Source: Atriophallophorus winterbourni
Lineage: Eukaryota; Platyhelminthes; Trematoda; Plagiorchiida; Microphallidae
Length of the DNA stretch: 64,000 bases
NCBI GenBank assembly: GCA_013407085.1
Contig: JACCGJ010010420.1
Location: 1-64,000, forward strand
Direction: 5' to 3'
Under the pieces are notes generated by a model that worked only from the letters and a program-made list of their open reading frames with translations, was not told where the DNA came from and ran no database searches. Each line of letters opens with the position of its first letter. Position 1 is the stretch's first letter. Positions 8,024 through 64,000 of this stretch are shown here, in pieces. The position numbers and the translations under genes were made by a program.

Positions 8024-8452
8024 CTAGTCTAAATAATAGCTTTTGTTCAAAATTACGGTTGCCTTACATTTATCAGCCTTAGTAATACCTATAATCGCAT
8101 CTTGCTTAAGCGTAAGAAGTGCTTGTCTTTCATGTGAATCAAGGTTTGCATCGCCTTGTTCCTGGTTTTTAATAACACCAGCGATACAGTTTCCTACCGT
8201 ATCTGCCTTTTCATTGGGAAGTGCATTTAATGATCCCTCAATACAGGGGATAAGATCTTCAGCCTTCACAAAGCTCTTACTTATGCAGAAATTTAGGACC
8301 TTCACCAACAATCTTTGTTCAACTCGTGAAAGTTTCCGATTAGATAAATTCAAAACACTAGAATACTGGTTGCTTGATAGTGACTAATTAGATTTATCTG
8401 ATGAACGTTTCTTATGAAACTCTAATAACTTGTTAAACTTACGGTTTTGTCG
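8024..8452 (-). pseudogene. Penelope-like element, N-terminal RT region
   Basis: The minus-strand frame reads KLLEFHKKRSSDKSN, a stop, then SLSSNQYSSVLNLSNRKLS and a stretch ending ITKADKCKATVILNKSYYLD. This matches the conserved start of PLE proteins (NLS.R.L...E..LL.KGL.F......) and the ADKG.ATVV...YL motif just before the RT palm. Conserved glycines are replaced (ADKC for ADKG) and the rest of the RT is missing below 8024. The fragment is head-to-head with the GIY-YIG part that begins near 8455. Confidence 0.75.
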
Positions 8453-8454
8453 TT

Positions 8455-8800
8455 ATCCTATTCGCTCCGTTTGTGTGGCCAAAACCTCCGCGTTTTCCAC
8501 AAAGGACTGTTCGGGTGTTTACATAGGGCAGACTTCCAGGGAAATTCAAAATAGAATCGAAGAACGCCGAAAGCGTGTCCGAAGACAGCCCTGGGATGCG
8601 AGGAAATATCAATCCCTTACTCGTGATTCCGCCTTAGTGAAGCACGTTTAGATACGGACCACAGCCTCGATCTAGACAATGTGGAATTATTGAGAGTCGG
8701 TATTAAACCGTATAGCGAACGCCAACATGTGGTGGTCGAAATTGTCAACGCGGTAAAAAATCTCCACAATCTGGCGCTCGTCGCTGATGCGAAGGTAAAT
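8455..8800 (+). pseudogene. Penelope-like element, GIY-YIG endonuclease domain
   Basis: The plus strand encodes DCSGVYIGQTSREIQNRIEE, the diagnostic GIY-YIG segment of PLE nucleases, followed by SALVKHV and then, after a -1 frameshift at about 8649, LDTDHSLDLDNVELLRVG and YSERQHVVVEIVNAV. This is the usual SAL..H....H..D......L......Y..R...E order. In PLEs this domain is C-terminal to the RT and cuts target DNA. Here it lies inverted to the RT fragment, an arrangement known from PLEs with inverted partial copies. Confidence 0.85.
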
Positions 8801-9107
8801 AGTTGTTATTCACCTTATACCTACTAGTTTATTAGATTTTTGTTTTTCTTTAAAATAAGCTTAACCTTAGCCCTTTTAATGATGCACGTTTACGCATGTG
8901 GGCCGCTGTGTCAACGGACCTTGACCGTGTTCACTTGTATTAGATTGACATGGATACACACTGTGAGGAAAATCGACCACTGATCCTGGTCATACCCACG
9001 AGACGTGACACAATGTAGGCGTACTATAGGCTGTTTAGCGGTAAGGTCAAATATGTGGTGGTGGGTTGACTACTAATTAATCACGTTCCCTGTCCTGACT
9101 ATCACCC

Positions 9108-9150
9108 TTGTTCTGACGAAGCTTCTGTGTCATAAGTGATACGTTGCCAA
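9108..9150 (+). ncRNA. fossil PLE-type hammerhead ribozyme
   Basis: About 300 bp downstream of the GIY-YIG domain the sequence TTGTTCTGACGAAGCTTCTG, TGT, CATAAGT, GATACGTTG, CCAA aligns step by step with the intact hammerheads of the 2.1-kb array. The core CTGACGA is present, but GAAA has become GATA and stem II has mismatches, so it should be inactive. It links the array ribozymes to PLE tails. Confidence 0.65.
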
Positions 9151-9345
9151 AAAAGTGCTCTAACCGATTTTACTCAAATTTCTTTGCATTAAACAAAATA
9201 TACTGATAAATAAACAAGAGATGAGTGAAAAATGAATAAACAGCTTCACTAATGTTCATTTACAAAAGTCACAAGTGAAAAATTGTTTCTAGATAAGCGT
9301 CGATCGAAGCACAAGTCAACATTCACCCAAAGGTCTCGAGAGGGT

Positions 9346-9390: not shown

Positions 9391-12300
9391 CTGAAAATAG
9401 AAGCGATGAGCGAATCGGTCAAACAGTATTTAATGCGAGTAAGCGATTGTTACGGAAATGTTACCTTTTCCGGGCGGAACCAAGAGATCAAGCAGAACAC
9501 CACGCGGTAGATCAAAGCCAGCACCACCAGCACACGACCAGACATACCTCCACGCATTGAGTAGCTGTCGGGAGGGGAAGAATCGTGTGATTTTTGCTTA
9601 ACGTGATTGGTCACGAATACAGCGCCTAGCCTAGATTGATTGTTTACTTGAAATGCTTCGAAGATGAAGAACGGGATGCAGAGTTGAAATATTTTAAACC
9701 ACAATGCATAATATCGGGAACTCTGAGCTATGGATTGTAAATATGATCGTAGGAACAAGATGATATACGGTAAAAAGCGGTTCACAACACCAAAACCAAC
9801 AAGTATCGATACATCGTTCAGCATATGCACGAACGAAAAAGAGACCATTCAAGTGATAAATGTCGCCAATGGGAAGACAGTAGGTTAAGTCTACTTCGAC
9901 ACAGAACAAGTTACAGAAATTATACGCTACGACATTAGAATGAATGAATCAATGCACAAGCCTGATCCAGGCAAAGTGCCGTACAGTCAGAGACTGCACG
10001 TGGGCTGAGATACTGTCAGGTTGCCCAGGCCTAAACAGATATGAGAATGAAAATACGACATTAGGGGAGGACTTGACACTCAGCGCAACGCATTCGTCGC
10101 ACTTTACTAAGCGTGCCAAGGATTTCTGGTTCACTTGAGAGAAATGTTTATCAAACATGGTAAGTTTATAGCATTCCTCACTTAGAAAAGACTAAAGCAT
10201 CGATCGCATCGGATAGCGTAGTTCTGTGGAACGCGATAAGTTCCAAAGGTTGACAGAGCTGAGGGTGGAAGTGAGGATAAGCTCCCAGTGTGCGTCTTAA
10301 ATAGCCACTGACAATGAAGTCCAGCTCCTGGCCTGCACGAGTGGCTATACGAGTCCAGCGGAACTGCTTCTATTAATATGGGAAAGAGCGAGGGAGATTG
10401 AATGGCGACTGAAATTTATTTAGTTAGTTAGCGCCTGGCGGATACAGCTCGTTAGCCCTGTAGGGTAGTCCGTTTAGGGGAATTAAAACCCAGGTTTGAA
10501 GACGTTGCCTTGCGGGATACTGGATTACGAGAAAGGCTCGCGAGACAATCCTGAGGAAAATCCGCGCCAGAGTCCCTTAGGCGGTTAGTTGGTGAACAGC
10601 ACCTCTACCCAGCAACTCACTGCTGCCTTACAGGTAGCACTTGGCTATGCAAAGGCTAAAGCTGACTCGGACAAACATCGAGTAGTGCTGTGGACGTCGC
10701 GTGGTACACAAATTCCCAAAGCTCTTCATGACTCACGGATCGCTACAATATATCGTTAATGCTACGATATGCCCAGTACTCCCCCAGCGGCTGGGTTGAA
10801 AGCAAGATCCTCCTCTTTATCTCATGCTGGAACGACATAATGCTCTTCGAGCCCGGTAGCCAATGCACCACGATGCGGTCTTTGCGACGATGGTATGAGT
10901 ATAGGCTGCCTGTCGGCAAAATAATCACGACCACTGGATCTAGTCGTATCAAGATTCCTGGAAGAAAATCTCATAATGGTTGTACCACAGTGGACCTACT
11001 GAAAAATCTAGGCTACAATTCGTCGCGATTGCGCTTGATGCAAGGATGCATTCTATGAAGAATTGCGACAAGCCGTTGATAAAATCCCTAGGCGTGGCAT
11101 GCTGATCATTGCTGGTGACTGTATACAATCTACAATCTAAGAACAACACAAGCTGTTGCGAGTCACCTCCAACTTTGGATCGGTATTTGTTGTGCGAAGA
11201 CTCTCCTAAAAGCGTATCATGCACCATTTGCTGACATCTAGCAGATACAAAAGTCCAATCGCTTTATGTGACGTTGAATCTCAGTGATTGACTCAAAACG
11301 AGAAGTAACTAGCTAATTCAGTATACGCTAGGGTTGAATTGTGTGTTGAGCTCGTTCTGTCGATGTTAACCATGGATATACATCACAAGCGTATGATGGT
11401 TTTATGCCCCACACCGTTTCCAATGGTGAAAACATTTGGCACAAGTACGTCTCGTGCATATGGCAAATTCTCGCATTCATGAGGACAGGCATGGGAGGCT
11501 TAGTATCAGGTTCCGCCTGGACCAATATTGAATACTGTTCAAACATTGCATGAGAAAACATCATAACGAAACGTTGAACAACAACGAAGCTTGCTTGGAA
11601 AACGCTATCGAAACCTCCCACCGTGAATAGCAAATTTTGTCCTCTATTTATATACGTTTATTTGAACAATTATTTCTATTGAGGTGACTGAAAAATTTTG
11701 TTAAAAAGAACAATGTGCCATTTGCAAGTAAACCAAAATGGGTGGCGTGAGTGGTTACCGTTTTAAAAGTCGATCAAACGTCAACGACTCATTTGACACG
11801 GCCTCGAAGTAGACCGCTTCAGTTCGCGATGCCACATCCGTCCAGGAATAAGCGTGTCGAACCCATTGATGCATTCGCCAAGATTTTTCTTCAATCGATT
11901 CGGCTTTTATGTAGGGTCCAGGCTAGTAAAAATGTACACGAGTCAATACATGTGTGTTGGCAATGCCAGAAATGGCAAAAGGGATTGACAGCCATCCACA
12001 ATACTGTGTGATAGAAGGCAACTTTGATTGTACAATGTGTATATGAAACGGGCAGATGCAATGGTCACATTATTCTTGTATACATACAGTACGTGAATCG
12101 CAAGGTAGTCATGCAATTCACCTTTTAAGATGAACGCGATGCTGTCTAGTCGTTCAGAAATGGTATCTTAGGGGACCACTCATCGAGCCTTTGGCGAAAT
12201 AACCTAAAGCACAACACATCTGGTTGAGAGACCATCTAACAATTACCAATTGGTTTTCTGTTGGCATAGCATGACTCCACACCTGTGGTTAACCATGATA

Positions 12301-41006: not shown

Positions 41007-41167
41007 TGTATACAAATGAGCAATTTGGAACACTATCTGTATGTGTTTAAGCACATTTGATTGAACAGGTTAATTGTACCAAACTGATTTAACTGTGGCG
41101 CTCAAGCGCAACGCTTTTCACATTCCTTCACTATTTATAGCACATGAGGATGTTGATGTTCCTGTTC

Positions 41168-41208
41168 CTAGCTAATTAATGCAAACAGCACAAAGCCGGT
41201 CGTGGAAT
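41168..41208 (+). ncRNA. fossil hammerhead of the GTGC-stem family
   Basis: CTAATTAATGCAAACAGCAC, AAAGCCGGTCGTGG aligns with CTGATGAGTGCAAACAGCAC, GAAACCGGTCGTGG of the 1952-1993 ribozyme (plus orientation here). The core is destroyed, so it is a dead copy. Confidence 0.65.
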
Positions 41209-41480
41209 TTGTTTAATGGAAATGCATATAATCTTTTTATTTCATATATCGCTATAATTGAAATTTACTCGTTTCAATACTCATTCAACGGGACATTCTA
41301 AAATTAGATATAATTAATATATTTAGGTATTTTTTATTAGTTGTAATTTCCGTATTATTAAAAATGAAAAGCGTCTTATGTGGCACAAATATTGTACTTT
41401 TTCATATAAAACCTATCCTTTTCCCATTGAGCGTAAATTCTAATTGATATATTTTAAATTACTTGATAATTATTTGATTT
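41209..41480. other. AT-rich, no recognised features
   Basis: Nothing recognised. Confidence 0.4.
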
Positions 41481-44130: not shown

Positions 44131-44203
44131 AGTGAATACAAATTTCAGAAATAGTACTTTGAACTATCCTGGGGTTGTAATAACCCTCGCGGCAATACGC
44201 CGT

Positions 44204-44315
44204 TGGATCAGTTGGGGCTTAGTTTAGTCCCTTCAGCTACTTATAAAGTAGCGAGTAGACGAGAACTTCAGTTCACATTGCGCCATCCGTCTACACAAAT
44301 ACTAGTTCGAAATGC
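44204..44315 (+). promoter_or_regulatory. possible internal Pol III promoter
   Basis: TGGATCAGTTGG at 44204-44215 matches the A-box except at one position, and GTTCGAAATGC at 44305-44315 resembles a B-box. The ~90-bp spacing is longer than in tRNAs. Unit 2 has the same boxes at +257. Confidence 0.35.
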
Positions 44316-44333
44316 GAAGAGTCCAGCGGATAC

Positions 44334-44376
44334 GCATAGCTGATGAGAGGCAAAAACCTCGAAACCGGTCCTGTGC
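44334..44376 (+). ncRNA. type I hammerhead ribozyme, 257-bp unit 1
   Basis: Stem I GCATAG/CTGTGC (one G-U), core CTGATGA, stem II GAGG/CCTC with loop CAAAAA, GAAA, palindromic ACCGGT stem III and GUC cleavage triplet (after 44370). All conserved core bases are intact. Confidence 0.85.
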
Positions 44377-44590
44377 TTCCGGTGAAATTTAAGCGTTTCG
44401 TAATGGTATTCTACTCTAAACTATCCTGGGGTTGTAATAACCCTTGCGGCAATAAGCCGTTGGATCAGTTAGGGCTTAGTTTAGTCCCTTCAGCTACTTA
44501 TAAAATAGCGAGTAGACGAGAATTTCAGTTCTCATTGCGCCATCCGTCTACACAAATACTAGTTCGAAACGCGAAGAGTCCAGCGGATAC

Positions 44591-44633
44591 GCATAGCTGA
44601 TGAGAGGCAAAAACCTCGAAACCGGTCCTGTGC
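44591..44633 (+). ncRNA. type I hammerhead ribozyme, 257-bp unit 2
   Basis: Identical over stem I, core, stem II, stem III and the cleavage site to the copy 257 bp upstream. Cleavage in a tandem transcript would release a 257-nt monomer. Confidence 0.85.
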
Positions 44634-46276
44634 TTCCGGTGAGATTTTAGCGTTTCGGAATGGTATTCTACTTTGAACTATCCTGGGGTTGTAATAACCC
44701 TCGCTGCAATACGCCGTTGGATCAGTTGAGGCTTAGTTTAGTCCCTTCAGCTACTTATAAAGTAGCGAGTAGACGAGAACTTCAGTTCACATAGTGCAAC
44801 ATCTTAACAAAAATGGACATTCGTTTGTTGCCAAAATAGGGCTTTCGTAAAAATGGATCTTAGATCACAAAATTGCTAAAACGTTTGAGGTTGTACGTGT
44901 TGTCAATTTGTCAGTCAGAAAAGGAAAGTCAACAATGAACTGTTATAATCAAAAGTATTCCAAATAAATCCCATAATACAGACTAATATAATTTCAACAT
45001 GAAATGAGCACCTTGTTAAACGATATTTTTAGAAATCCATATATAAAAAACAAGGAATTCGATCAAAAGATGAAATTATTTCAATTTTATAGAAAAGTGA
45101 CTCGGACTCCATTTCAGTGTAATGCTTAACAGGGTAATCGACTAAAATTAACCTGCAATTTGCATGCAAAACTATGTACAACGAGTGGAGGTGTATCGTA
45201 AAACAGTCGCTCTATCCATAAGTTTTACTCAGACGAAAGATTTCAACGTTCCATCTAGTTCCATCACGCAATCGAAGATTTTGAAGCATCAGGACGAGGC
45301 TTTAAAGCATGTGGCAAATGTCTGCTTGCAGTTGCTCATATTCTCTGCTTGGAAATCCGTCTTGCATCTTCTGATGACTTTCGCACTTGAACAAGTCAGA
45401 AGCGGAACGTTCCAATTTACTGAAATAACCTATTGTATTCAAATTGAATAGCGTCATTAAAAACAATTTAAATTTAACATTAAGTGAGCAACTTGTTGAA
45501 CGTTAGAATTTAAATGAAAATTTAAAAATGATTTTATAATTGTAGCAGTGCTTCTCAGTTTCCATTTCAGCCTGATGCTTAACAGGCTCAGCGAATAAAA
45601 TGCAAAATTTTACAAACAAATTAACTCAAATGTCGGTATCCATCTTGATATCTGAAGGTAGACTTGCATTAACGTGTGAAATTTGACTTCATCATAAAAG
45701 CAGCTGTAGTTTTGTAAGCTGAAACTTCTGTAGATATTGATTTAGTGAACTTTGTGCACTCTGCTCTAGTTAGGTCGCGAAATGTGTGCAGTTGTCCGTG
45801 GTTCTGAGTCAAGCGTGTGAACGGTTCACAAAGTGTGTTCATCACCACTTGTAGCCTGTATACAAAATGTTAATTTTCAAAAGCGCTTAGTGATCAGAAA
45901 GTTATATCTAATAGGGTGGATCAACGGTCTCTCAATATTTGAATATAAATCTCGATTTTCTTCGTGATTAATTCCAATAAACTAATATGATGTGGCAGTG
46001 TATATTGTTGCTCACAAACCCGGACTCACGCACTATAGCCATAATTGAATTTTTACAGTCACCAGCCAAAGAGAGCAAGATTATTTCTATCGAGCCTTGA
46101 AATGGCGAAAATCGTTAATCGAAGTTGGATATCTTAGCTACTGTCTAATCGCGTTCGTAAAACACACCACTGTTAATAAATGCATATTTACAATGCAATG
46201 GAAAATGTTTGTGACAGATCGGGGAATCATAATCATGAATTAATATAGTTTGTAATGAATCTGTGAGAGTAGTTTA

Positions 46277-46319
46277 TTGGTAACGTTTCGCTTCTGACAC
46301 AGAAGCTCCGTCAGACCAA
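46277..46319 (-). ncRNA. array hammerhead, left arm unit 1 (core mutation)
   Basis: Stem I, stem II and GAAACGTT are intact, but the core reads CTGACGG in place of CTGACGA, so cleavage is doubtful. Confidence 0.6.
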
Positions 46320-46968
46320 GGTTGTCAGTACGAACAGGGATCAAGCTTAAATTGCCTTCACCTGACCAATCATAAGCTGGTTAAGAATTGCACAGTCCAT
46401 AGTGGGTTCTGCGCTCGCTAAGAAGGACAGGCGCGTTCAATATCAATTGACGCACCACCACCCCTACGTTCCGTATTATCTCTTAATTGTTTTAGTCTTG
46501 GCAGGTGAGAATGACATCTGCTGACAGATTAGCGCGATTGCGTAATCGGTGCGCACAATAATGTTTATCCGATGCAGGACCGGACGCCAGATTGGGGTGA
46601 TATCAGCCCCATCCACCTTGTTGACAGCATTCTCACCAGCCTTTGTTATCTCAACCGCCTCAGCCTGAAGTCTTTCCATGTATGGCGTCCGGTCCTGCAG
46701 CGGATAAACATTAGCGTGCGTAACAACTAGTGTGCGCACCGATTACGCAATCGCGCGAATCTGTCGACAGATGTCATTCACACTTGTCAAGACTAAAACA
46801 ATTAAGGGATTATACGGCACGTAAGGGTGGTGGTGCGTCAGTTGATATTGAACGCGCCTGTCCTTCTTAACGAGCGCAAATCCCACCGTGGACTCCGCAG
46901 TTATTAACCAGCTTATGATTGGTCAGGTGGAGGCAATTTAAGCTTGATCCCTGTTCGCACTGACAACC

Positions 46969-47009
46969 TTGGTCTGACGAAGCTTCTGTCAGAAGCGAAA
47001 CGTTACCAA
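46969..47009 (+). ncRNA. array hammerhead, right arm unit 1
   Basis: Stem I TTGGT/ACCAA, core CTGACGA, one extra A, stem II GCTTCT/AGAAGC with loop GTC, GAAA, palindromic ACGT stem III and a GUU triplet (after 47004). This minimal form with a two-base-pair stem III matches the hammerheads known from Penelope-like elements, which act as dimers. Confidence 0.78.
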
Positions 47010-48299
47010 TAAACTACTCTCACAGATTCATTACAAACTTTTTTTTCATATTTAAAAATTATTCTCATTGAAGCACTCACGGTGAATATAATAGGTTTTT
47101 TATGATAATTTATGAACAAGGATAACAAGGATAGCTGATGTTTAGGATCAACGCCACTTCATAGCAAGTGAATGTTTGCGGCATCGGATTAACCATGTTA
47201 TTCAACTGAAGAAAATAATTTTCAACATGCTAATAAAATCAGGCTTTAAATAAATATCCAAATTTGCATGCATTCAATCACGAATTTTAGCTTTCAAATC
47301 GGTCTTAATTTTATTCAAGATTGATCCGTAAATGAAGAATATATTTTAGTTGGCATTAGCTCATCACGTCTTCTTTTTGAAGCTTGAGGACGAGGTTTTT
47401 AAGCATGTGGCAGATGTCTGCTTGCAGTTGCTCATATTCTCTGCTTGGAAATCCGTCTTGCATCTTCTGATGACTTTCGCACTTGAACAAGTCAGAAGCG
47501 GAACGTTCCAATTTACTGAAATAACCTATTGTATTCAAATTGAATAGCGTCAATAAAAACAATTTAAATTTAACATTAAGTGAGCAACTTGTTGAACGTT
47601 AGAATTTAAATGAAAATTTAAAAATGATTTTATAATTGTAGCAGTGCTTCTCAGTTTCCATTTCAGCCTGATGCTCAACAGGCTCAGCGAATAAAATGCA
47701 AAATTTTACAAACAAATTAACTCAAATGTCGGTATCCATCTTGATATCTGAAGGTAGACTTGCATTAACGTGTGAAATTTGACTTCATCATAAAAGCAGC
47801 TGTTGCTTTGTAAGTGAAACTTCTGTAGATATTGATTTAGTGAACTTTGTGCACTCTGCTCTAGTTAGGTCGCGAAATGTGTGCAGTTTTCCGTGGTTCT
47901 GAGTCATTTGTTAAGCAAGCGTGTGAACGGTTCACAAAGTGTGTTCATCACCACTTGTAGCCTGTATACAAAATTTTAATTTTCAAAAGCGCTTAGTGAT
48001 CAGAAAGTTATATCTAATAGGGTGGATCAACGGTCTCTCAATATTTGAATATAAATCTCGATTTTCTTCGTGATTAATTCCAATAAACTAATATGATGTG
48101 GCAGTGTATATTGTTGCTCACAAACCCGGACTCACGCACTATAACCGAAATTGAATTTTTACAGTCACCAGCCAAAGACAGCAAGATTATTTCTATCGAG
48201 CCTTGAAATGGCGAAAATCGTTAATCGAAGTTGGATATCTAAGCTACTGTCTAATCGCGTTCGTAAAGCACACCACTGTTAATAAATGCATATTTACAA

Positions 48300-49145
48300 T
48301 GCAATGGAAAATGTTTGTGACAGATCGAGGAATCATAATCATGAATAAATAAAGTTTGTAATGAATCTGTGAGAGTAGTTTATTGGTAACGTTTCGCTTC
48401 TGACACAGAAGCTTCGTCAGACCAAGGTTGTCAGTACGAACAGGGATCAAGCTAAAATTGCCTTCACCTGACCAATCATAAGCTGGTTAAGAATTGCACA
48501 GTCCATAGTGGGTTCTGCGCTCGTTAAGAAGGACAGGCGCGTTCAATATCAATTGACGCACCACCACCCCTACGTTCCGTATTATCTCTTAATTGTTTTA
48601 GTCTTGGCAGGTGAGAATGACATCTGCTGACAGATTAGCGCGATTGCGTAATCGGTGCGCACAATAATGTTTATCCGATGCAGGACCGGACGCCAGATTG
48701 GGGTGATATCAACCTTGTTGACCGCATTCTCACCAGCCTTTGTTATCTCAACCGCCTCAGCCTGAAGTCTTTCCATGTATGGCGTCCGGTCCTGCAGCGG
48801 ATAAACATTAACGTGCGTAACAACTAGTGTGCGCACCGATTACGCAATCGCGCGAATCTGTCGACAGATGTCATTCACAATTGTCAAGACTAAAACAATT
48901 AAGGGATTATACGGCACGTAAGGGTTGGTGGTGCGGTCAGTTGAGAATTGGAACGCGCCTTGTCATTCTTAACGAGCGCAAGACGCAACGTGGACTCCGC
49001 AGTTATTAACAGCTTTATGATTGGTTCAGGGGGAGGCAATTTACGCTTGACCCGGTTCGCATGACACCTTGGTCTGTAACGAGTTATGTCAGAAGCGGAA
49101 AACGTACCAATAAACTACTCTCACAGATCATACAAACTTTTTTTT
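48300..49145. mobile_element. foldback insertion, unit 2 (right half indel-rich)
   Basis: Left duplication CATATTTACAA at 48289-48299; the right one has lost a base (CATATTACAA at 49146). The loop lacks the short GCCCCATC segment present in the others. From about 48920 many single-base indels distort the right arm, including its hammerhead near 49074-49122. Confidence 0.82.
48383..48425 (-). ncRNA. array hammerhead, left arm unit 2
   Basis: All elements are intact on the minus strand: TTGGT/ACCAA, CTGACGA, a seven-pair stem II GCTTCTG/CAGAAGC with loop TGT, and GAAACGTT. Confidence 0.78.
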
Positions 49146-49445
49146 CATATTACAAATTATTCTTCATTGAAGCACTCACGGTGAATATAATAGGTTTTTT
49201 CTGATATGATAAAAAATTGAATGAACACAAAGATAGTGATTGTTAGGATCAACGCCACTAATAGCAACGTGATGTGTGACGGCATCGGATTAACCATGGT
49301 ATTAACGGAAGAAAATAATTTCAACATGCTAATAAAATCAGGCTTTAAATAAATATCCAAATTTGCATGCATTCAATCACGAAATTTAAGCTTTTCAAAT
49401 CGCGTACTTAATTTTATTCAAGATGAACGGAAATGAAGAAAAGAT
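48920..49445. other. indel-rich segment, probable consensus error
   Basis: Against the sibling units this half-kilobase has many scattered one- or two-base insertions and deletions (for example GGTTGGTGGTGCGGTCAG for GGTGGTGGTGCGTCAG), with few substitutions. Flanking sequence matches well. This looks like an unpolished join in the assembly rather than biology. Confidence 0.55.
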
Positions 49446-50493
49446 TTTAACGTTCCATCTAGTTCCATCACGCAAACGAAGATTTTGAAGCATCAGGACG
49501 AGATTTTTAAGCATGTAGCAAATGTCTGCTTGCAGTTGCTCATAATCCCTGCTTGGAAATCCGTCTTGCATCTTCTGATGACTTTCGCACTTGAACAAGT
49601 CAGAAGCGGAACGTTCCAATTTACTGAAATAACCTATTGTATTCAAATTGAATAGCGTCATTAAAAACAATTTAAATTTAACATTAAGTGAGCAACTTGT
49701 TGAACGTTAGAATTTTAATGAAAATTTAAAAATGATTTTATAATTGTAGCAGAGCTCCTTAGTTTCCATTTCAGCCTGATGCTTAACAGGCTCAGCGAAT
49801 AAAATGCAAAATTTTACTAACAAATTAACTCAAATGTCGTTATCCATCTTGATATCTGAAGGTAGACTTGCATTAACGTGTGAAATTTGACTTCATCATA
49901 AAAGCAGCTGTAGTTTTGTAAGCTGAAACTTCTGTAGATATTGATTTAGTGAACTTTGTGCACTCGGCTCTAGTTAGGTCGCGAAACGTGTGCAGTTGTC
50001 CGTGGTTCTGAGTCATTTGTTAAGCAAGCGTGTGAACGGTTCACAAAGTGTGTTCATCACCACGTGTAGCCTGTATACAAAATTTTAATTTTCAAAAGCG
50101 CTTAGTGATCAGAAAGTTATATCTAATAGGGTAGATCAACGGTCTCTCAATATTTGAATATAAATCTCGATTTTCTTCGTGATTAATTCCAATAAACTAA
50201 TATGATGTGGCAGTGTATATTGTTGCTCACAAACCCGGACTCACGCACTATATAGCCATAATTGAATTTTTACAGTCACCAGCCAAAGACAGCAAGATTA
50301 TTTCTATCGAGCCTTGAAATGGCGAAAATCGTTAATCGAAGTTGGATATCTAAGCTACTGTCTAATCGCGTTCGTAAAACACACCACTGTTAATAAATGC
50401 ATATTTACAATGCAATGGAAAATGTTTGTGACAGATCGAGGAATCATAATCATGAATAAATAAAGTTTGTAATGAATCTGTGAGAGTAGTTTA

Positions 50494-50536
50494 TTGGTAA
50501 CGTTTCGCTTCTGACACAGAAGCTTCGTCAGACCAA
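50494..50536 (-). ncRNA. array hammerhead, left arm unit 3
   Basis: Intact; same sequence as the unit 2 left-arm copy. Confidence 0.78.
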
Positions 50537-51180
50537 GGTTGTCAGTACGAACAGGGATCAAGCTAAAATTGCCTTCACCTGACCAATCATAAGCTGGTTA
50601 AGAATTGCACAGTCCATAGTGGGTTCTGCGCTCGTTAAGAAGGACAGGCGCGTTCAATATCAATTGACGCACCACCACCCCTACGTTCCGTATTATCTCT
50701 TAATTGTTTTAGTCTTGGCAGGTGAGAATGACTGACAGATTAGCGCGAATTGCGTATTCGGTGCGCACAATAATGTTTATCCGATGCAGGACCGGACGCC
50801 AGATTGGGATGATATCAGCCCCATCCACCTTGTTGACAGCATTCTCACCAGCCTTTGTTACCTCAACCGCCTCAGCCTGAAGTCTTTCCATGTATGGCGT
50901 CCGGTCCTGCAGCGGATAAACATTAGCGTGCGTAACAACTAGTGTGCGCACCGATTACGCAATCGCGCGAATCTGTCGACAGATGTCATTCACACTTGTC
51001 AAGACTAAAACAATTAAGGAATTTTACGGCACGTAAAGGTGGTGATGCGTCAGTTGATTTTGAACGCGCCTGTCCTTCTTAACGAGCGCAAAACCCACCG
51101 TGGACTCCGCAGTTATTAACCAGCTTATGATTGGTCAGGTAAAGGCAATTTAAGCTTGATCCCTGTTCGCACTGACAACC

Positions 51181-51221
51181 TTGGTCTGACGAAGCTTCTG
51201 TCAGAAGCGAAACGTTACCAA
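51181..51221 (+). ncRNA. array hammerhead, right arm unit 3
   Basis: Intact; same sequence as the unit 1 right-arm copy. Confidence 0.78.
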
Positions 51222-52588
51222 TAAACTACTCTCACAGATTCATTACAAACTTTTTTTTCATATTTAAAAATTATTCTCATTGAAGCACTCACGGTGAATA
51301 TAATAGGTTTTTTATGATAATTTATGAACAAGGATAGCTGATGTTTAGGATCAACGCCACTTCATAGCAAGTGAATGTTTGCGGCATCGGATTAACCATG
51401 TTATTCAACTGAAGAAAATAATTTTCAACATGCTAATAAAATCAGGCTTTAAATAAATATCCAAATTTGCATGCATTCAATCACGAATTTTAGCTTTCAA
51501 ATCGGTCTTAATTTTATTCAAGATTGATCCGGAAATGAAGAATATATTTTAGTTGGCATTAGCTCATCACGTCTTCTTTTTGAAGCATGAGGACGAGGTT
51601 TTTAAGCATGTGGCAAATGTCTGCTTGCAGTTGCTCATATTCTCTGCTTGGAAATCCGTCTTGCATCATCTGATGACTTTCGCACTTGAACAAGTCAGAA
51701 GCGGAACGTTCCAATTTACTGAAATAACCTATTGTATTCAAATTGAATAGCGTCATTAAAAACAATTTAAATTTAACATTAAGTGAGCAACTTGTTGAAC
51801 GTTAGAATTTAAATGAAAATTTAAAAATGATTTTATAATTGTAGCAGTGCTTCTCAGTTTCCATTTCAGCCTGATGCTTAACAGGCTCAGCGAATAAAAT
51901 GCAAAATTTTACAAACAAATTAACTCAAATGTCGGTATCCATCTTGATATCTGAAGGTAGACTTGCATTAACGTGTGAAATTTGACTTCATCATAAAAGC
52001 AGCTGTAGTTTTGTAAGCTGAAACTTCTGTAGATATTGATTTAGTGAACTTTGTGCACTCGGCTCTAGTTAGGTCGCGAAACGTGTGCAGTTGTCCGTGG
52101 TTCTGAGTCATTTGTTAAGCAAGCGTGTGAACGGTTCACAAAGTGTGTTCATCACTACTTGTAGCCTGTATACAAAATGTTAATTTTCAAAAGCGCTTAG
52201 TGATCAGAAAGTTATATCTAATAGGGTAGATCAACGGTCTCTCAATATTTGAATATAAATCTCGATTTTCTTCGTGATTAATTCCAATAAACTAATATGA
52301 TGTGGCAGTGTATATTGTTGCTCACAAACCCGGACTCACGCACTATATAGCCATAATTGAATTTTTACAGTCACCAGCCAAAGACAGCAAGATTATTTCT
52401 ATCGAGCCTTGAAATGGCGAAAATCGTTAATCGAAGTTGGATATCTAAGCTACTGTCTAATCGCGCTCGTAAAACACACCACTGTTAATAAATGCATATT
52501 TACAATGCAATGGAAAATGTTTGTGACAGATCGGGGAATCATAATCATGAATAAATAAAGTTTGTAATGAATCTGTGAGAGTAGTTTA

Positions 52589-52631
52589 TTGGTAACGTTT
52601 CCCTTCTGACATAGAAGCTTCGTCAGACCAA
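52589..52631 (-). ncRNA. array hammerhead, left arm unit 4 (stem II altered)
   Basis: The core CTGACGA and GAAACGTT are intact, but the stem II closing pair is G-G and the loop is enlarged (ATGTC). Reduced activity is expected. Confidence 0.6.
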
Positions 52632-53279
52632 GGTTGTCAGTACGAACAGGGATCAAGCTTAAATTGCCTTCACCTGACCAATCATAAGCTGGTTAAGAAT
52701 TACACAGTCCATAGTGGGTTCTGCGCTCGCTAAGAAGGACAGGCGCGTTCAATATCAATTGACGCACCACCACTCCTACGTGCCGTATTATCTCTTAATT
52801 GTTTTAGTCTTGGCAGGTGAGAATGAATCTGCTGACAGATTAGCGCGATTGCGTAATCGGTGCGCACAATAATGTTTATCCGATGCAGGACCGGACGCCA
52901 GATTGGGGTGATATCAGCCCCATCCACCTTGTTGACAGCATTCTCACCAGCCTTTGTTATCTCAACCGCCTCAGCGTGAAGTCTTTCCATGTATGGCGTC
53001 CGGTCCTGCAGCGGATAAACATTAACGTGCTTAACAACTAGTGTGCGCACCGATTACGCAATCGCGCGAATCTGTCGACAGATGTCATTCACACTTGTCA
53101 AGACTAAAACAATTAAGGGATTATACGGCACGTAAGGGTGGTGGTGCGTCAGTTGATATTGAACGCGCCTGTCCTTCTTAGCGAGCGCAGAACCCACTAT
53201 GGACTGTGCAATTCTTAACCAGCTTATGTTTGGTCAGGTGAAGGCAATTTAAGCTTGATCCCTGTTCGCACTGACAACC

Positions 53280-53320
53280 TTGGTCTGACGAAGCTTCTGT
53301 CAGAAGCGAAACGTTACCAA
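53280..53320 (+). ncRNA. array hammerhead, right arm unit 4
   Basis: Intact minimal hammerhead as in units 1 and 3. Confidence 0.78.
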
Positions 53321-54684
53321 TAAACTACTCTCACAGATTCATTACAAACTCATTTTTTTCATATTTACAAATTATTCTCATTGAAGCACTCACGGTGAAT
53401 ATAATAGGTTTTTATGATAATTTATCAACAAGGATAGCTGATGTTTAGGATCAACGCCACTTCATAGCAAGTGAATGTTTGCGGCATCGGATTAACCATG
53501 TTATTCAACTGAAGAAAATAATTTTCAACATGCTAATAAAATCAGGCTTTAAATAAATATCCAAATTTGCATGCATTCAATCACGAATTTTAGCTTTCAA
53601 ATCGGTCTTAATTTTATTCAAGATTGATCCGGAAATGAAGAATATATTTTAGTTGGCATTAGCTCATCACGTCTTCTTTTTGAAGCTTGAGGACGAGGTT
53701 TTTAAGCATGTGGCAAATGTCCGCTTGCAGTTGCTCATATTCTCTGCTTGGAAATCCGTCTTGCATCTTCTGATGACTTTCGCACTTGAACAAGTCAGAA
53801 GCGGAACGTTCCAATTTACTGAAATAACCTATTGTATTCAAATTGAATAGCGTCAATAAAAACAATTTAAATTTAACATTAAGTGAGCAACTTGTTGAAC
53901 GTTAGAATTTAAATGAAAATTTAAAAATGATTTTATAATTGTAGCAGTGCTTCTCAGTTTCCATTTCAGCCTGATGCTCAACAGGCTCAGCGAATAAAAT
54001 GCAAAATTTTACAAACAAATTAACTCAAATGTCGGTATCCATCTTGATATCTGAAGGTAGACTTGCATTAACGTGTGAAATTTGACTTCATCATAAAAGC
54101 AGCTGTAGTTTTGTAAGCCGAAACTTCTGTAGATATTGATTTAGTGAACTTTGTGCACTCGGCTCTAGTTAGGTCGCGAAACGTGTGCAGTTGTCCGTGG
54201 TTCTGAGTCATTTGTTAAGCAAGCGTGTGAACGGTTCACAAAGTGTGTTCATCACTACTTGTAGCCTGTATACAAAATGTTAATTTTCAAAAGCGCTTAG
54301 TGATCAGAAAGTTATATCTAATAGGGTAGATCAACGGTCTCTCAATTTGAATATAAATCTCGATTTTCTTCGTGATTAATTCCAATAAACTAATATGATG
54401 TGGCAGTGTATATTGTTGCTCACAAACCCGGACTCACGCAATATAACCAAAATTGAATTTTTACAGTCACCAGCCAAAGACAGCAAGATTATTTCTATCG
54501 AGCCTTGAAATGGCGAAAATCGTTAATCGAAGTTGGATATCTAAGCTACTGTCTAATCGCGCTCGTAAAACACACCACTGTTAATAAATGCATATTTACA
54601 ATGCAATGGAAAATGTTTGTGACAGATCGGGGAATCATAATCATGAATAAATAAAGTTTGTAATGAATCTGTGAGAGTAGTTTA

Positions 54685-54727
54685 TTGGTAACGTTTCCCT
54701 TCTGACATAGAAGCTTCGTCAGACCAA
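54685..54727 (-). ncRNA. array hammerhead, left arm unit 5 (stem II altered)
   Basis: Same closing-pair change as in unit 4, which suggests units 4 and 5 share a recent common ancestor. Confidence 0.6.
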
Positions 54728-55375
54728 GGTTGTCAGTACGAACAGGGATCAAGCTTAAATTGCCTTCACCTGACCAATCATAAGCTGGTTAAGAATTACA
54801 CAGTCCATAGTGGGTTCTGCGCTCGCTAAGAAGGACAGGCGCGTTCAATATCAATTGACGCACCACCACTCCTACGTGCCGTATTATCTCTTAATTGTTT
54901 TAGTCTTGGCAGGTGAGAATGAATCTGCTGACAGATTAGCGCGATTGCGTAATCGGTGCGCACAATAATGTTTATCCGATGCAGGACCGGACGCCAGATT
55001 GGGGTGATATCAGCCCCATCCACCTTGTTGACAGCATTCTCACCAGCCTTTGTTATCTCAACCGCCTCAGCCTGAAGTCTTTCCATGTATGGCGTCCGGT
55101 CCTGCAGCGGATAAACATTAGCGTGCGTAACAACTAGTGTGCGCACCGATTACGCAATCGCGCGAATCTGTCGACAGATGTCATTCACACTTGTCAAGAC
55201 TAAAACAATTAAGGGATTATACGGCACGTAAGGGTGGTGGTGCGTCAGTTGATATTGAACGCGCCTGTCCTTCTTAACGAGCGCAAAACCCACCGTGGAC
55301 TCCGCAGTTATTAACCAGCTTATGATTGGTCAGGTGGAGGCAATTTAAGCTTGATCCCTGTTCGCACTGACAACC

Positions 55376-55416
55376 TTGGTCTGACGAAGCTTCTGTCAGA
55401 AGCGAAACGGTACCAA
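55376..55416 (+). ncRNA. array hammerhead, right arm unit 5 (stem III altered)
   Basis: Core and stem II are intact, but ACGTT has become ACGGT, which breaks the palindromic stem III and the cleavage triplet. Confidence 0.6.
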
Positions 55417-56782
55417 TAAACTACTCTCACAGATTCATTACAAACTTTTTTTTTCATATTTACAAATTATTCTCATTGAAGCACTCACGGTGAATATAAT
55501 AGGTTTTTTTATGATAATTTATGAACAAGGATAGCTGATGTTTAGGATCAACGCCACTTCATAGCAAGTGAATGTTTGCGGCATCGGATTAACCATGTTA
55601 TTCAACTGAAGAAAATAATTTTCAACATGCTAATAAAATCAGGCTTTAAATAAATATCCAAATTTGCATGCATTCAATCACGAATTTTAGCTTTCAAATC
55701 GGTCTTAATTTTATTCAAGATTGATCCGGAAATGAAGAATATATTTTAGTTGGCATTAGCTCATCACGTCTTCTTTTTGAAGCTTGAGGACGAGGTTTTT
55801 AAGCATGTGACAAATGTCTGCTTGCAGTTGCTCATATTCTCTGCTTGGAAATCCGTCTTGCATCTTCTGATGACTTTCGCACTTGAACAAGTCAGAAGCG
55901 GAACGTTCCAATTTACTGAAATAACCTATTGTATTCAAATTGAATAGCGTCATTAAAAACAATTTAAATTTAACATTAAGTGAGCAACTTGTTGAACGTT
56001 AGAATTTAAATGAAAATTTAAAAATGATTTTATAATTGTAGCAGTGCTTCTCAGTTTCCATTTCAGCCTGATGCTTTACAGGCTCAGCGAATAAAATGCA
56101 AAATTTTACAAACAAATTAACTCAAATGTCGGTATCCATGTTGATATCTGAAGGTAGACTTGCATTAACGTGTGAAATTTGACTTCATCATAAAAGCAGC
56201 TGTTGCTTTGTAAGTGAAACTTCTGTACATATTGATCTAGTGAACTTTGTGCACTCTGCTCTAGTTAGGTCGCGAAATGTGTGCAGTTTTCCGTGGTTCT
56301 GAGTCATTTGTTAAGCAAGCGTGTGAACGGTTCACAAAGTGTGTTCATCACCACTTGTAGCCTGTATACAAAATTTTAATTTTCCAAAGCGCTTAGTGAT
56401 CAGAAAGTTATATCTAATAGGGTGGATCAACGGTCTCTCAATATTTGAATATAAATCTCGATTTTCTTCGTGATTAATTCCAATAAACTAATATGATGTG
56501 GTAGTGTATATTGTTGCTCACAAACCCGGACTCACGCAATATAACCAAAATTGAATTTTTACAGTCACCAGCCAAAGACAGCAAGATTATTTCTATCGAG
56601 CCTTGAAATGGCGAAAATCGTTAATCGAAGTTGGATATCTAAGCTACTGTCTAATCGCGTTCGTAAAGCACACCACTGTTAATAAATGCATATTTACAAT
56701 GCAATGGAAAATGTTTGCGACAGATCGAGGAATCATAATCATGAATAAATAAAGTTTGTAATGAATCTGTGAGAGTAGTTTA

Positions 56783-56825
56783 TTGGTAACGTTACGCTTC
56801 TGACACAGAAGCTCCGTCAGACCAA
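56783..56825 (-). ncRNA. array hammerhead, left arm unit 6 (inactive)
   Basis: Two core changes, CTGACGG and GTAA for GAAA, should abolish cleavage. Confidence 0.6.
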
Positions 56826-57474
56826 GGTTGTCAGTACGAACAGGGATCAAGCTTAAATTGCCTTCACTTGACCAATCATAAGCTGGTTAAGAATTGCACA
56901 GTCCATAGTGGGTTCTGCGCTCGCTAAGAAGGACAGGCGCGTTCAATATCAATTGACGCACCACCACCCCTACGTGCCGTATTATCTCTTAATTGTTTTA
57001 GTCTTGGCAGGTGAGAATGACATCTGCTGACAGATTAGCGCGATTGCGTAATCGGTGCGCACAATAATGTTTATCCGATGCAGGACCGGACGCCAGATTG
57101 GGGTGATGTCAGCCCCATCCACCTTGTTGACAGCATTCTCACCAGCCTTTGTTATCTCAACCGCCTCAGCGTGAAGTCTTTCCATGTATGGCGTCCGGTC
57201 CTGCAGCGGATAAACATTAACGTGCGTAACAACTAGTGTGCGCACCGATTACGCAATCGCGCGAATCTGTCGACAGATGTCATTCACACTTGTCAAGACT
57301 AAAACAATTAAGGGATTATACGGCACGTGAGGGTGGTGGTGCGTCAGTTGATATTGAACGCGCCTGTCCTTCTTAACGAGCGCAAAACCCACCGTGGACT
57401 CCGCAGTTATTAACCAGCTTATGATTGGTCAGGTAAAGGCAATTTAAGCTTGATCCCTGTTCGCACAGACAACC

Positions 57475-57515
57475 TTGGTCTGACGAAGCTTCTGTCAGAA
57501 GCGAAACGTTACCAA
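57475..57515 (+). ncRNA. array hammerhead, right arm unit 6
   Basis: Intact minimal hammerhead as in units 1, 3 and 4. Confidence 0.78.
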
Positions 57516-58788
57516 TAAACTACTCTCACAGATTCATTACAAATTTATTTTTTTCATATTTACAAATTATTCTCATTGAAGCACTCACGGTGAATATAAT
57601 AGGTTTTTTTATGATAATTTATGAACAAGGATAGCTGATGTTTAGGATCAACGCCACTTCAAAGCAAGTGAATGATTGCGGCATCGGATTAACCATGTTA
57701 TTCAACTGAAGAAAATAATTTTCAACATGCTAATAAAATCAGGCTTTAAATAAATATCCAAATTTGCATGCATTCAATCACGAATTTTAGCTTTCAAATC
57801 GGTCTTAATTTTATTCAAGATTGATCCGGAAATGAAGAATATATTTTAGTTGGCATTAGCTCATCACGTCTTCTTTTTGAAGCATGAGGACGAGGTTTTT
57901 AAGCATGTGGCAAATGTCTGCTTGCAGTTGCCCATATTCTCTGCTTGGAAATCCGTCTTGCATCTTCTGATGACTTTCGCACTTGAACAAGTCAGAAGCG
58001 GAACGTTCCAATTTACTGAAGTAACCTATTGTATTCAAATTGAATAGCGTCATTAAAAACAATTTAAATTTAACATTAAGTGAGCAACTTGTTGAACGTT
58101 AGAATTTTAATGAAAATTTAAAAATGATTTTATAATTGTAGCAGAGCTCCTTAGTTTCCATTTCAGCCTGATGCTTAACAGGCTCAGCGAATAAAATGCA
58201 AAATTTTACTAACAAATTAACTCAAATGTCGTTATCCATCTTGATATCTGAAGGTAGACTTGCATTAACGTGTGAAATTTGACTTCATCATAAAAGCAGC
58301 TGTAGTTTTGTAAGCTGAAACTTCTGTAGATATTGATTTAGTGAACTTTGTGCACTCGGCTCTAGTTAGGTCGCGAAACGTGTGCAGTTGTCCGTGGTTC
58401 TGAGTCATTTGTTAAGCAAGCGTGTGAACGGTTCACAAAGTGTATTCATCACCACCTGTAGCCTGTATACAAAATGTTAATTTTCAAAAGCACCTAGTGA
58501 TCAGAAAGTTTTATCTAATAGAGTAGATCAACGGTCTCTCAATATTTGAATATAAATCTCGATTTTCTTCATGATTAATTCCAATAAACTAATATGATGT
58601 GGCAGTGTATATTGTTCATCACAAACGCGGACTCACGCACTATTACCAATATTGTATTTTTACAGTCATCAGGCAAAGTCAGCTAGATTATTTCTATTGA
58701 GCCTTGAAATGGTGAAAATCGTTAATCGAAGTTGGATATTTAAGCTACTGTCTAATCGAGTTCGTAAAAAAACCACGGTTATAGAATG

Positions 58789-58799
58789 CAGATTTATAA
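58789..58799. repeat. empty insertion site in the terminal unit
   Basis: CAGATTTATAA stands where the other units have CATATTTACAA-foldback-CATATTTACAA, and it is followed at once by GTTATTATCCTTGAAGC (the others: ATTATTCTCATTGAAGC). This unit never received, or cleanly lost, the foldback. Confidence 0.85.
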
Positions 58800-58899
58800 G
58801 TTATTATCCTTGAAGCAATCACGGTGAATATAATTGGTTTTTAGAATGATAATTTATGAACAACGATAGCTGATGTTTAGGACCACCGCCACATTCATA

Positions 58900-59950
58900 G
58901 CAAGTGAATGTTTGCGCATTCGGATTACACATGTTAGTCAACTGAACAAATAATTTTCATCATGCTAATAAAAACAGGCTTTAAATGAATATCCAAATTT
59001 GCATGCATTTCCATCGCGAATTTTAGCTTTCAAATCAGCCATATTTTTACTCAAGATTGATACGTAAACAAGCATAGATTTTATATTGCATTGGCTCATC
59101 ACCTCTACTTTTTCGTTCAGCGCAGCAAACTGACAAACTAAATGAAAAAGATAGTTCGTAGAAAAGCTCACCCAGTTTAAAATGAAAGCACTGTCAGTTA
59201 TATTAATGTCAGGATATAAATGTATTAAAACTCTGCTTTTGTTATCCCTATAAAGTCACATACATTCTTCTGCAAATTGATCAAATGGGTTTCGTAGACG
59301 CACCATACCTAATTGAATGACATTAAATTAATATGAAAAATCCGATCAATTCATACGTATAAAACATATCCGTTATTTGCTGGTTTTATTGTTTTTTTCC
59401 TTATCCTAGCAGGTCGACGGTCAACGTGGATAGGAATCACAAGCAACTGTTTATTTTATAGTGTTCACTGTCCAGCAGTATGATGCAGACCGATGCATGC
59501 GTTAGTGCAATCAAAGCTATGTGCAGTCGTGAATTGTTTCGCGACGTTTGCACAATCTATTAGTGAGCGTTATTATGTAACAAGAATCGAAAAGTGCGTT
59601 TCAAGGTCTTCAATATTATTGTATTCTCAAATTCGATTATAATGCATTTAATTATAACATCAATATTTACACCGTGTTATGGTTCAAGGATGTAATATCT
59701 CCCAGTTATGAAATTAGTCATACGCCCCTCGTATCTCAGATAGCCACTGAGAACCAATTCGTCGTCAGTGATACACGTCTGTGCAATCAATTCTTGTGGA
59801 TATTAACTGAATCAAAGTTAAAGTAACAAAAATAATTTGGAAGAAGTTTGGCGAAAATGGTAGATGCACAGTACAGAATATGAGGTAATATACAAGAACG
59901 TATGAAGTAAGAAAAGCATGAAAGGTAGACCTACAACCTGTTGTTATTAT
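58900..59950. other. diverged array edge, then no recognised features
   Basis: Homology to the array unit fades out by about 59110 (last shared landmark GGCTCATCAC at 59093). The rest is AT-rich without recognised features. Confidence 0.5.
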
Positions 59951-62658: not shown

Positions 62659-64000
62659 GAATAACCTATTGTATTCAATTTGAATAGCGTCATTATAAAC
62701 AATTTAAATTTAACATTAAGTGAGCAACTTGTTGAACGTCAGAATTTTATTGAAAATTTAAAAAATGATTTTATAATTGTAGCAGTGCTTCTTAGTTTCC
62801 ATTTCAGCCTGATGCTTAACAGGCTCAGCGAATAAAATGCAAAATTTTACAAACAAATTAACTCAAAGGTCGGTATCCATCTTGATATATGAAGGTAGAC
62901 TTGCATTAACGTGTGAAATTTGACTTCATCATAAAAGCAGCTGTAGTTTTGTAAAGTGAAACTTCTGTAGATATTGATTTAGTGAACATCGTGCACTCAG
63001 CTCTAGTTAGGTCGCGAAATGTGTGCAGTTGTCCGTGGTTCTGAGTCATTTGTTAAGCAAGCGTGTGAACGGTTCACAAAGTGTGTTCATCACCACTTGT
63101 AGCCTGTATACAAAATTTTAATTTTCATAAGCGCTTAGTGATCAGAAAGTTATATCTAATAGGGTAGATCAACGGTCTCTCAATATTTGAATATAAATCT
63201 CGATTTTCTTCGTGATTAATTCCAATAAACTAATATGATGTGGCAGTGTATATTGTTGCTCACAAACCCGGACTCACGCAATATAACCAAAATTGAATTT
63301 TTACAGTCACCAGCCAAAGACAGCAAGATTATTTCTATCGAGCCTTGAAATGGCGAAAATCGTTAATCGAAGTTGGATATCTAAGCTACTGTCTAATCGC
63401 GTTCGTAAAGCACACCACTGTTAATAAATGCATATTTACAATGCAATGGAAAATGTTTGTGACAGATCGAGGAATCATAATCATGAATAAATAAAGTTTG
63501 TAATGAATCTGTGAGAGTAGTTTATTGGTAACGTTTCGCTTCTGACACAGAAGCTTCGTCAGACCAAGGTTGTCAGTACGAACAGGGATCAAGCTTAAAT
63601 TGCCTTCACCTGACCAAACATAAGCTGGTTAAGAATTGCACAGTCCATAGTGGGTTCTGCGCTCGCTAAGAAGGACAGGCGCGTTCAATATCAATTGACG
63701 CAGCACCACCCCTACGTGCCGTATTATCTCTTAATTGTTTTAGTCTTGGCAGGTGAGAATGACATCTGCTGACAGATTAGCGCGATTGCGTAATCGGTGC
63801 GCACAATAATGTTTATCCGATGCAGGATCGGACGCCAGATTAGGGTGATATCAGCCCCATCCACCTTGTTGACAGAATTCTCACCAGCCTTTGTTATCTT
63901 AACCGTCTCAGCCTGAAGTCTTTCCATGTATGGCGTCCGGTCCTGCAGCGGATAAACATTAGCGTGCGTAACAACTAGTGTGCGCACCGATTACGCAATC
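62659..64000 (+). repeat. second block of the 2.1-kb repeat, runs off the window
   Basis: Begins mid-unit and continues in register with the main array, including the foldback insertion from 63442 (left duplication CATATTTACAA at 63431-63441). The right arm is cut by the window end. Confidence 0.9.
63525..63567 (-). ncRNA. array hammerhead, left arm of last unit
   Basis: Intact; same as the unit 2 and 3 left-arm copies. Confidence 0.78.

Follow-up and report, generated by a model that had tools for sequence, protein, structure and literature searches.

The locus raises the question of whether a ~0.85-kb hairpin insert, which follows CATATTTACAA in six 2.1-kb repeat units and is missing from an uninterrupted seventh unit, is a mobile element or a palindrome that was only ever duplicated with its surroundings. 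An initial annotation of the window (i.e. the whole 64,000-nucleotide stretch of Atriophallophorus winterbourni DNA analysed here) had read the insert as a hammerhead-tipped, Penelope-derived foldback that inserted once, duplicated 11 bp of target and was then amplified with the repeat. Features of the locus are collected in Table 1.

The insert in the tandem repeat and its Penelope-like anatomy

The six filled units, the uninterrupted seventh and the 11-bp duplication were confirmed from coordinates and flanks. Complete inserts in the window (n = 6) measured 846–855 bp. The left target duplication was exact in all seven window inserts; the right one was exact in 3/6, carried one substitution in 2/6 (at 47047 and 51259) and contained a deletion in copy 2. 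A genome search for this target (i.e. target A) detected nine filled and four empty copies, all on the contig of the window, with the filled copies at 63442, 65540 and 210589 (minus strand) lying outside the region initially annotated. Divergence between the two arms of a copy was 0.058–0.092 (K2P) for copies 1, 3, 4, 5 and 6 and 0.185 for copy 2. Insertion A was shown to have multiplied along with its host repeat.

Derivation of unit 7 by deletion was examined using the other empty A sites (at 74391, 78845 and 209143, minus strand). The last unit contained one uninterrupted site and no arm remnant, and no residue interrupts any of the four empty copies, some of which are diverged. Three empty copies differed from the filled copies (copy 2 left out) by K2P values of 0.10–0.12 (two copies) and 0.23–0.24 (one copy), and the fourth was 83% identical to unit 7. 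Loss of an insert from unit 7 by deletion was not borne out.

Table 1. Positions of the inserts, of the parts of copy 4, of the empty sites and of a decayed relative in the window
Feature	Position	Strand	Remark
Insert copy 1	46194..47046	.	
Insert copy 2	48300..49145	.	Right half resembles poor consensus
Insert copy 3	50411..51258	.	
Insert copy 4	52506..53359	.	Type A palindrome; 854-bp example of the initial annotation
Insert copy 5	54602..55454	.	
Insert copy 6	56700..57554	.	
Insert copy 7	63442..64000	.	Interrupted by window end; end point on contig 64296
Left target duplication, copy 4	52495..52505	+	CATATTTACAA
PLE tail, copy 4	52506..52557	-	On left arm only
Left arm, copy 4	52558..52900	-	Minus-strand PLE 3' end (ORF end, 3' UTR, pLTR)
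Left-arm hammerhead-like core, copy 4	52597..52626	-	
107-aa frame	52733..53053	-	Residues 20-64 87% identical to L028 PLE ORF C-terminus
Loop, copy 4	52901..52993	-	93 bp; portion of PLE ORF C-terminus (YMERL...IW)
Right arm, copy 4	52994..53352	+	Plus-strand PLE 3' end; partly converted to left-arm sequence
Right-arm hammerhead-like core, copy 4	53285..53312	+	
Right target duplication, copy 4	53360..53370	+	CATATTTACAA
Empty site A	58789..58799	+	Single CAGATTTATAA in last unit (57875-59113)
Empty site B	11580..11590	-	Single GCTTCGTTGTT
Decayed PLE relative	8027..9169	.	N-terminal frame and pLTR match in opposite senses
Its N-terminal frame	8027-8383	-	54% identity to L028 PLE
Its pLTR match	9087-9169	+	

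The insert is built from the 3' end of a GIY-YIG Penelope-like element (PLE), present twice and joined head-to-head; each of the two comprises the end of the ORF, the 3' UTR and a pLTR with a hammerhead-like motif. Copy 4 runs from a 52-bp tail through the left arm, a 93-bp loop and the right arm to a terminal T-run. A 36-base tail pattern (up to 3 mismatches) matched 743 sites genome-wide and the reversed control none. Penelope derivation, previously a surmise, was shown via related PLEs in the same genome with open and broken frames. One open frame of 720 aa (L028) matched RVT_1 (3.5e-8) and GIY-YIG (0.0048, below cut-off) in Pfam, the GIY-YIG match falling under the cut-off in both frames tested; its C-terminus was 87% identical to the insert frame over 45 aa. 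L028 is a typical PLE in its anatomy, with an inverted 127-bp pLTR (98.4%), a tail and a 13-bp direct repeat, and its far end, ACAAAC(T)n, is the same as that of the insert. No matches were obtained in Pfam for the insert frame and the decayed PLE pieces of the window or in a protein search with two short window frames, and PDB sequence searches gave no credible match. The insert shares with PLEs its descent from an element with RT and GIY-YIG domains, a pair of inverted pLTRs of which one bears a tail, and a short duplication of a target that also occurs uninterrupted (11 bp at both A and the second target B; 13 bp at L028). Because all that it retains of the PLE ORF is the terminal portion, with neither RT nor endonuclease of its own, the insert is non-autonomous at most. 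Very probably, it is a palindrome derived from a GIY-YIG PLE, non-autonomous and mobile as a unit.

The hammerhead of the initial annotation stands as a motif match. The core pattern CTGANGA...GAAA was present in 5/6 right arms (plus strand) and 5/7 left arms (minus strand); the same loose pattern had nine other matches in the window, some probably due to chance. Rfam detected no hammerhead in the insert, either in the whole window or with a relaxed threshold on 43000-64000, where only two HH9 hits, both sub-threshold, appeared (44322 and 44579). The predicted monomer fold differs from the active one, and hammerhead patterns gave 0 and 0 matches in viral_contigs and genome_contigs. The pLTRs carry minimal hammerhead-like motifs, candidates for a type I core lacking helix III, which may possess ribozyme activity.

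A second target and the number of origins

Copies outside the repeat were sought with a centre-junction pattern, which, with up to 3 mismatches allowed, produced 12 matches across the genome (none in the control), nine at A and three at an unrelated target (i.e. target B). The B copies are located on two other contigs, C12591 (two copies) and C14552, within flanks unrelated to target A, and are bounded by their own 11-bp duplication, GCTTCGTTGTT. Their hairpin has a junction identical to that of A to the base and the same 16-bp left-arm deletion. Mobility of the hairpin, as initially proposed, is supported by this presence of one hairpin at two unrelated targets, each with a separate duplication. 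Three empty copies of target B were found, one of them in the window. The empty-site sets for A and B each include diverged copies, and precise excision as the origin of unit 7 and of the window's B site was therefore rejected. C12591 and the window have nearly identical flanks and differ by the B insertion; as C12591 appears to be recombinant, this pair alone does not date B.

The two insertions differ at their ends. At A the left arm bears the tail and the insert ends in a T-run; at B the right arm bears it and the left pLTR is cut internally. These opposite-arm tails suggest that either strand can act as template and that A and B did not arise directly from one another. No more than two insertion events were detected, and the genome-wide junction pattern identified no direct source copy of either, all 12 matches being A or B.

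An improbable alternative is that a 5'-truncated PLE with a long inverted pLTR inserted once into the repeat, all else being locus duplication of a palindrome that never moved. Such an origin would fit the nine A copies, all on one contig with flanks in common, the related head-to-head forms L028 and L057, and the inverted pLTR ends described as common in PLEs in the text of PMC3846280. It is contradicted, unless B is misassembled, by the three B copies of the same hairpin with their unrelated flanks, different 11-bp duplication and different ends.

Slightly less probable still are two independent palindrome formations, at A and at B, whose breakpoints agree by coincidence. Head-to-head events do recur, as the PLE structures L057 and L058 have breakpoints differing from those of the insert, and a tree with the A arms constrained together was not rejected (p-AU 0.078). 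Against this stand the shared junction and deletion and the arm trees, in which left arms grouped with left (96/89) and right with right (100/96) across A and B; constraining the B arms to one clade was rejected (p-AU 0.023). Arm-specific changes are common to hairpins at two unrelated targets, and the palindrome probably arose once. Separation of all hairpin arms from PLEs received support of only 86/73.

A classical foldback DNA transposon, moved by a transposase acting on long terminal inverted repeats, is the least credible reading, for although the long inverted repeats, the empty sites and the 11-bp duplication at both targets would suit it, the termini of A and B differ and the arms are PLE 3' ends.

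Possible mode of copying and relation to known elements

For the single, mobile palindrome, copying would proceed by target-primed reverse transcription with enzyme supplied by full PLEs. Each arm terminates in a sense pLTR, so that RNA copied from either strand could be a template, and such two-way templating would generate A with a left-arm tail and B with a right-arm tail. The palindrome itself was probably born when first-strand cDNA snapped back and primed its own synthesis through a TGG/CCA match at a distance of 93 nt. We offer tentatively, at somewhat less than even odds, the view of a palindromic PLE as a two-headed retroelement, reverse-transcribable from either end, with A and B as the two outcomes and a one-step fold-back birth. 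The birth event may be preserved in L058, a PLE palindrome plus ~214 bp of inverted target flank, where self-primed synthesis would have run on into target DNA. A free-standing source element with tails on both arms is no longer required, because the right pLTR of L057 continues into PLE sequence, resembling that beside the L032 tail, and offers another route.

The initial statement that no named element has this exact structure was too strong, since endonuclease-containing PLEs of Adineta vaga with inverted pLTRs, a tail and a TSD have been published (PMC3846280). In the text of that paper these elements resemble the insert in having inverted pLTRs arranged head-to-head, only one of which bears the short 3' tail; the examples given show TSDs of 8-10 bp, and 5'-truncated forms enclosed by inverted pLTRs also occur. 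Their pLTRs still enclose PLE body or captured DNA, whereas the insert is nearly arms alone, a bare palindrome that was copied to two targets and bears its tail on a different arm at each. Literature searches returned no recognised description of a bare palindromic PLE moving as a unit, although this is not proof of absence.

Other elements share single traits with the insert. PAc of Anolis (PMC11167929) has a pLTR hammerhead missing part of the canonical form, AT-rich targets and reverse transcription that starts internally and so produces the tail; it differs in being autonomous, tandem and studied in vitro, and the text of the paper seen here mentions no palindromic form. Retrozymes, as described in the text of PMC7761336, are likewise non-autonomous with hammerhead motifs, but these lie in direct repeats and spread is by circular RNA, while the motifs of the insert are inverted and lie in PLE pLTRs. 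Galileo-type foldback DNA transposons, in the descriptions available, also have long inverted arms flanking a short middle, in contrast to which the insert has neither constant termini nor a transposase and is of PLE origin.

The origin of inverted PLE ends is treated as an open question in the text of PMC3846280, the Discussion of which proposes self-priming from structures alone. This genome holds an ordered series, in which the palindrome formed, was copied to A and B, and was amplified at A. Both targets have empty sites, the 3-nt junction is defined and the tails lie on opposite arms, which makes self-priming and two-way templating directly testable.

Filled and empty target sites

The array of inserts at one position with an uninterrupted seventh unit, as described in the initial annotation, was recovered, six of the seven units carrying the near-palindromic insert and unit 7 being empty (see table). 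The array lies on a 216-kb contig (i.e. C6738) of a fragmented assembly (537 Mb, 15,840 contigs), and the window corresponds to positions 1–64000 of that contig. When the empty site plus flanking sequence was searched against the genome and all 31 candidates were scored, 33 matches were obtained: 18 halves of nine filled sites, four empty sites and 11 matches stopping short of the site. In most copies the two halves of the filled site (insertion A) overlapped by 11 query bases, the overlap being the target duplication; in the empty copy at 209 kb, GCATATTTACAAGTTATT is uninterrupted. A degenerate end of the terminal repeat (pLTR) of Penelope-like elements (PLEs), TCAGAAGCGGAACGTT..., is present within the host repeat at 51690–51745 and in its relative at 16987–17040 (80–81% at 17 kb), pointing to an older PLE end built into the repeat.

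Positions of the insert, its host repeat and related sites
Feature	Position	Strand	Description
Insert, copy 4	52506–53359		52-bp tail; left arm 52558–52900; 93-bp loop; right arm 52994–53352; T-run
107-aa frame		minus	across insert centre
Host-repeat array	45279–59113		seven units; six with insert of 846–855 bp, all at one point
Second host-repeat array	from 62654
Further host-repeat piece	C6738, ~209–212 kb	opposite
Empty A site (match span)	C6738, 58609–59000
Empty A site (match span)	C6738, 74391–74778
Empty A site (match span)	C6738, 78845–79092
Empty A site (match span)	C6738, 209143–209534	minus
Empty B target	11580–11590	minus	in window
Empty B site	C6738, 114 kb		81%
Empty B site	C6738, 172 kb		84%
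PLE palindrome L058 (C2811)	L058, 19–2217		arms continue into ~214 bp of inverted target flank, no further

The initial annotation had called for a search for copies outside the repeat. A 31-base centre-junction pattern (up to three mismatches) gave 12 matches genome-wide, and the reversed control pattern gave none at the same tolerance. Nine matches were in the C6738 repeat; the other three (two on C12591, one on C14552) were hairpins in unrelated surroundings, bounded by a target duplication of their own, GCTTCGTTGTT, and with 5–6 extra bases (TAGCAA) ahead of the tail (insertion B). In a search for the B site (10 of 10 candidates scored), six of the ten matches were halves of the three filled copies, three were empty sites and one fell short of the site. 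Only two insertion events, A and B, were found.

Window positions 9441–13598 are 98–99.9% identical to part of C12591, the difference being insertion B, and the pair would represent either alleles or a recent duplication. In C12591:5500–10500, one flank of the insert is 99.86% identical to the window (2161 bp) and the other 98.0% (2022 bp); the region has the appearance of a recombination product between filled and empty flanks.

Identity of the insert

Besides the hairpins, at least 28 places in the genome matched the first ~480–495 bases of the insert (40 of 5002 first-look candidates scored). Eight regions, together containing nine of these 28 PLE-end places, were used as a comparison sample. 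A DNA-level PLE match was present in all eight, and the C-terminal peptide WRPVL lay inside a frame of at least 80 aa in seven, the frame of the eighth (i.e. L034) being broken there. The insert frame shared 39 of 45 residues with the end of the 720-aa frame of L028, a PLE locus. The L028 frame matched Pfam RVT_1 (3.5e-8) and, under the Pfam cut-off, GIY-YIG (0.0048). Homologs of this frame numbered at least 1888 at E ≤ 0.001 (7991 scored); named sources among the 120 listed included Schistosoma japonicum, Opisthorchis viverrini, Clonorchis sinensis, Heterobilharzia and Trichobilharzia and, beyond trematodes, a lancelet, corals, fishes and others, a spread compatible with a trematode host. L028 (2568 bp) starts with an inverted 127-bp pLTR, 98.4% like its own 3' pLTR, ends with the tail found in the insert and is bounded by two CACTCAGGCAGAC; the far end ACAAAC(T)n is common to both. 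The PLE matches, the frame match to L028 and the common tail and far end indicate that the insert is a head-to-head pair of PLE 3' ends with little in between.

PLE copies at L030, L031 and L034 share one internal starting point, PLE base 736, and are preceded by a different open frame whose start is cysteine-rich; they are possibly a chimeric element that spread. Four exact tail matches at ~1.9-kb spacing in one orientation (C5522:163028–168743) are probably a tandem PLE array.

Origin and order of events

The hairpins of A and B indicate a single origin: the junction, a 16-bp left-arm deletion and arm-specific substitutions are common to both. Arms of eight A and three B copies, together with 11 PLE ends from the eight comparison regions, made up the 33 rows of an IQ-TREE tree, from which copy 2 was omitted as a probable poor consensus. 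Right arms grouped together (100/96), as did left arms (96/89); support for separating all hairpin arms from PLEs was just 86/73. Constraining the B arms together was rejected (p-AU 0.023), and the tree constraining the A arms together stays acceptable (p-AU 0.078). A carries the tail on its left arm; B carries it on its right arm and has the left arm cut at ACCAATAAA. Neither A nor B contains everything that a direct source of the other would need.

PLE reverse transcription is described as able to begin within the transcript (PMC11167929), and an internal start fits the PLE tail. In a palindromic element such a start would be offered by both strands, and A and B look like two outcomes of a two-strand start. 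The junction of CATGTATGG with CGTCC would be expected if first-strand cDNA ending in TGG primed at CCA 93 nt back on itself. Self-priming has been proposed for PLEs from their structures, with an antisense template (PMC3846280); our proposal differs from that account in invoking the first cDNA strand. Across a compared stretch of 198 bp the inverted flanks of L058 are 97% identical, a structure that self-primed synthesis running beyond the insertion point would leave; this single locus could also stem from an inversion at the DNA level or from misassembly.

Over 300+300 bp, filled copies other than copy 2 differed from empty sites by K2P distances of 0.10–0.12 (unit 7, 209 kb) and 0.23–0.24 (74 kb), and copy 2 by 0.17 and 0.27; an alternative cut of 190+340 bp gave 0.16–0.18 for unit 7 against five filled copies. 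Majority rows of left and right arms differed by 0.068, a minimum given conversion between arms, and filled copies among themselves by 0.003–0.035 without copy 2 (copy 2 versus the others, 0.05–0.09). As filled/empty divergence exceeds arm/arm and arm/arm exceeds filled/filled divergence, the events appear to run from host-repeat divergence through palindrome formation and insertion to amplification.

Of ten right-arm departures in copy 4 within alignment columns 114–175, nine match the left arm; the right-arm tract at 53181–53214 is identical to the left arm, reading as conversion between palindrome arms. Copy 2 and its right flank (48930–49500) are crowded with small indels and substitutions, like a poorly polished assembly stretch, and the sequence of copy 2 probably reflects a poor consensus.

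Hammerhead-like motifs

A hammerhead-like core pattern occurred in five of six right arms, five of seven left arms and nine other places in the window. PLE hammerheads are described in a review as minimal type I motifs without helix III that may cleave as dimers (PMC7761336). Within the insert, Rfam recognised no hammerhead, either in a search of the whole window or in one of 43000–64000 at a relaxed threshold, and the predicted monomer fold differs from the active fold. The insert hammerheads are described as putative motif matches, with no activity claimed. Elsewhere, a 257-bp tandem repeat (44155–44792, 2.5 copies) holds two HH9 matches of 43.9 and 42.5 bits (gathering score 52). A 128-bp repeat at 1678–2039 (two copies, 95%) carries a minus-strand hammerhead-like core in each copy (1729–1753 and 1963–1987), and related sequence is present at 41041–41227.
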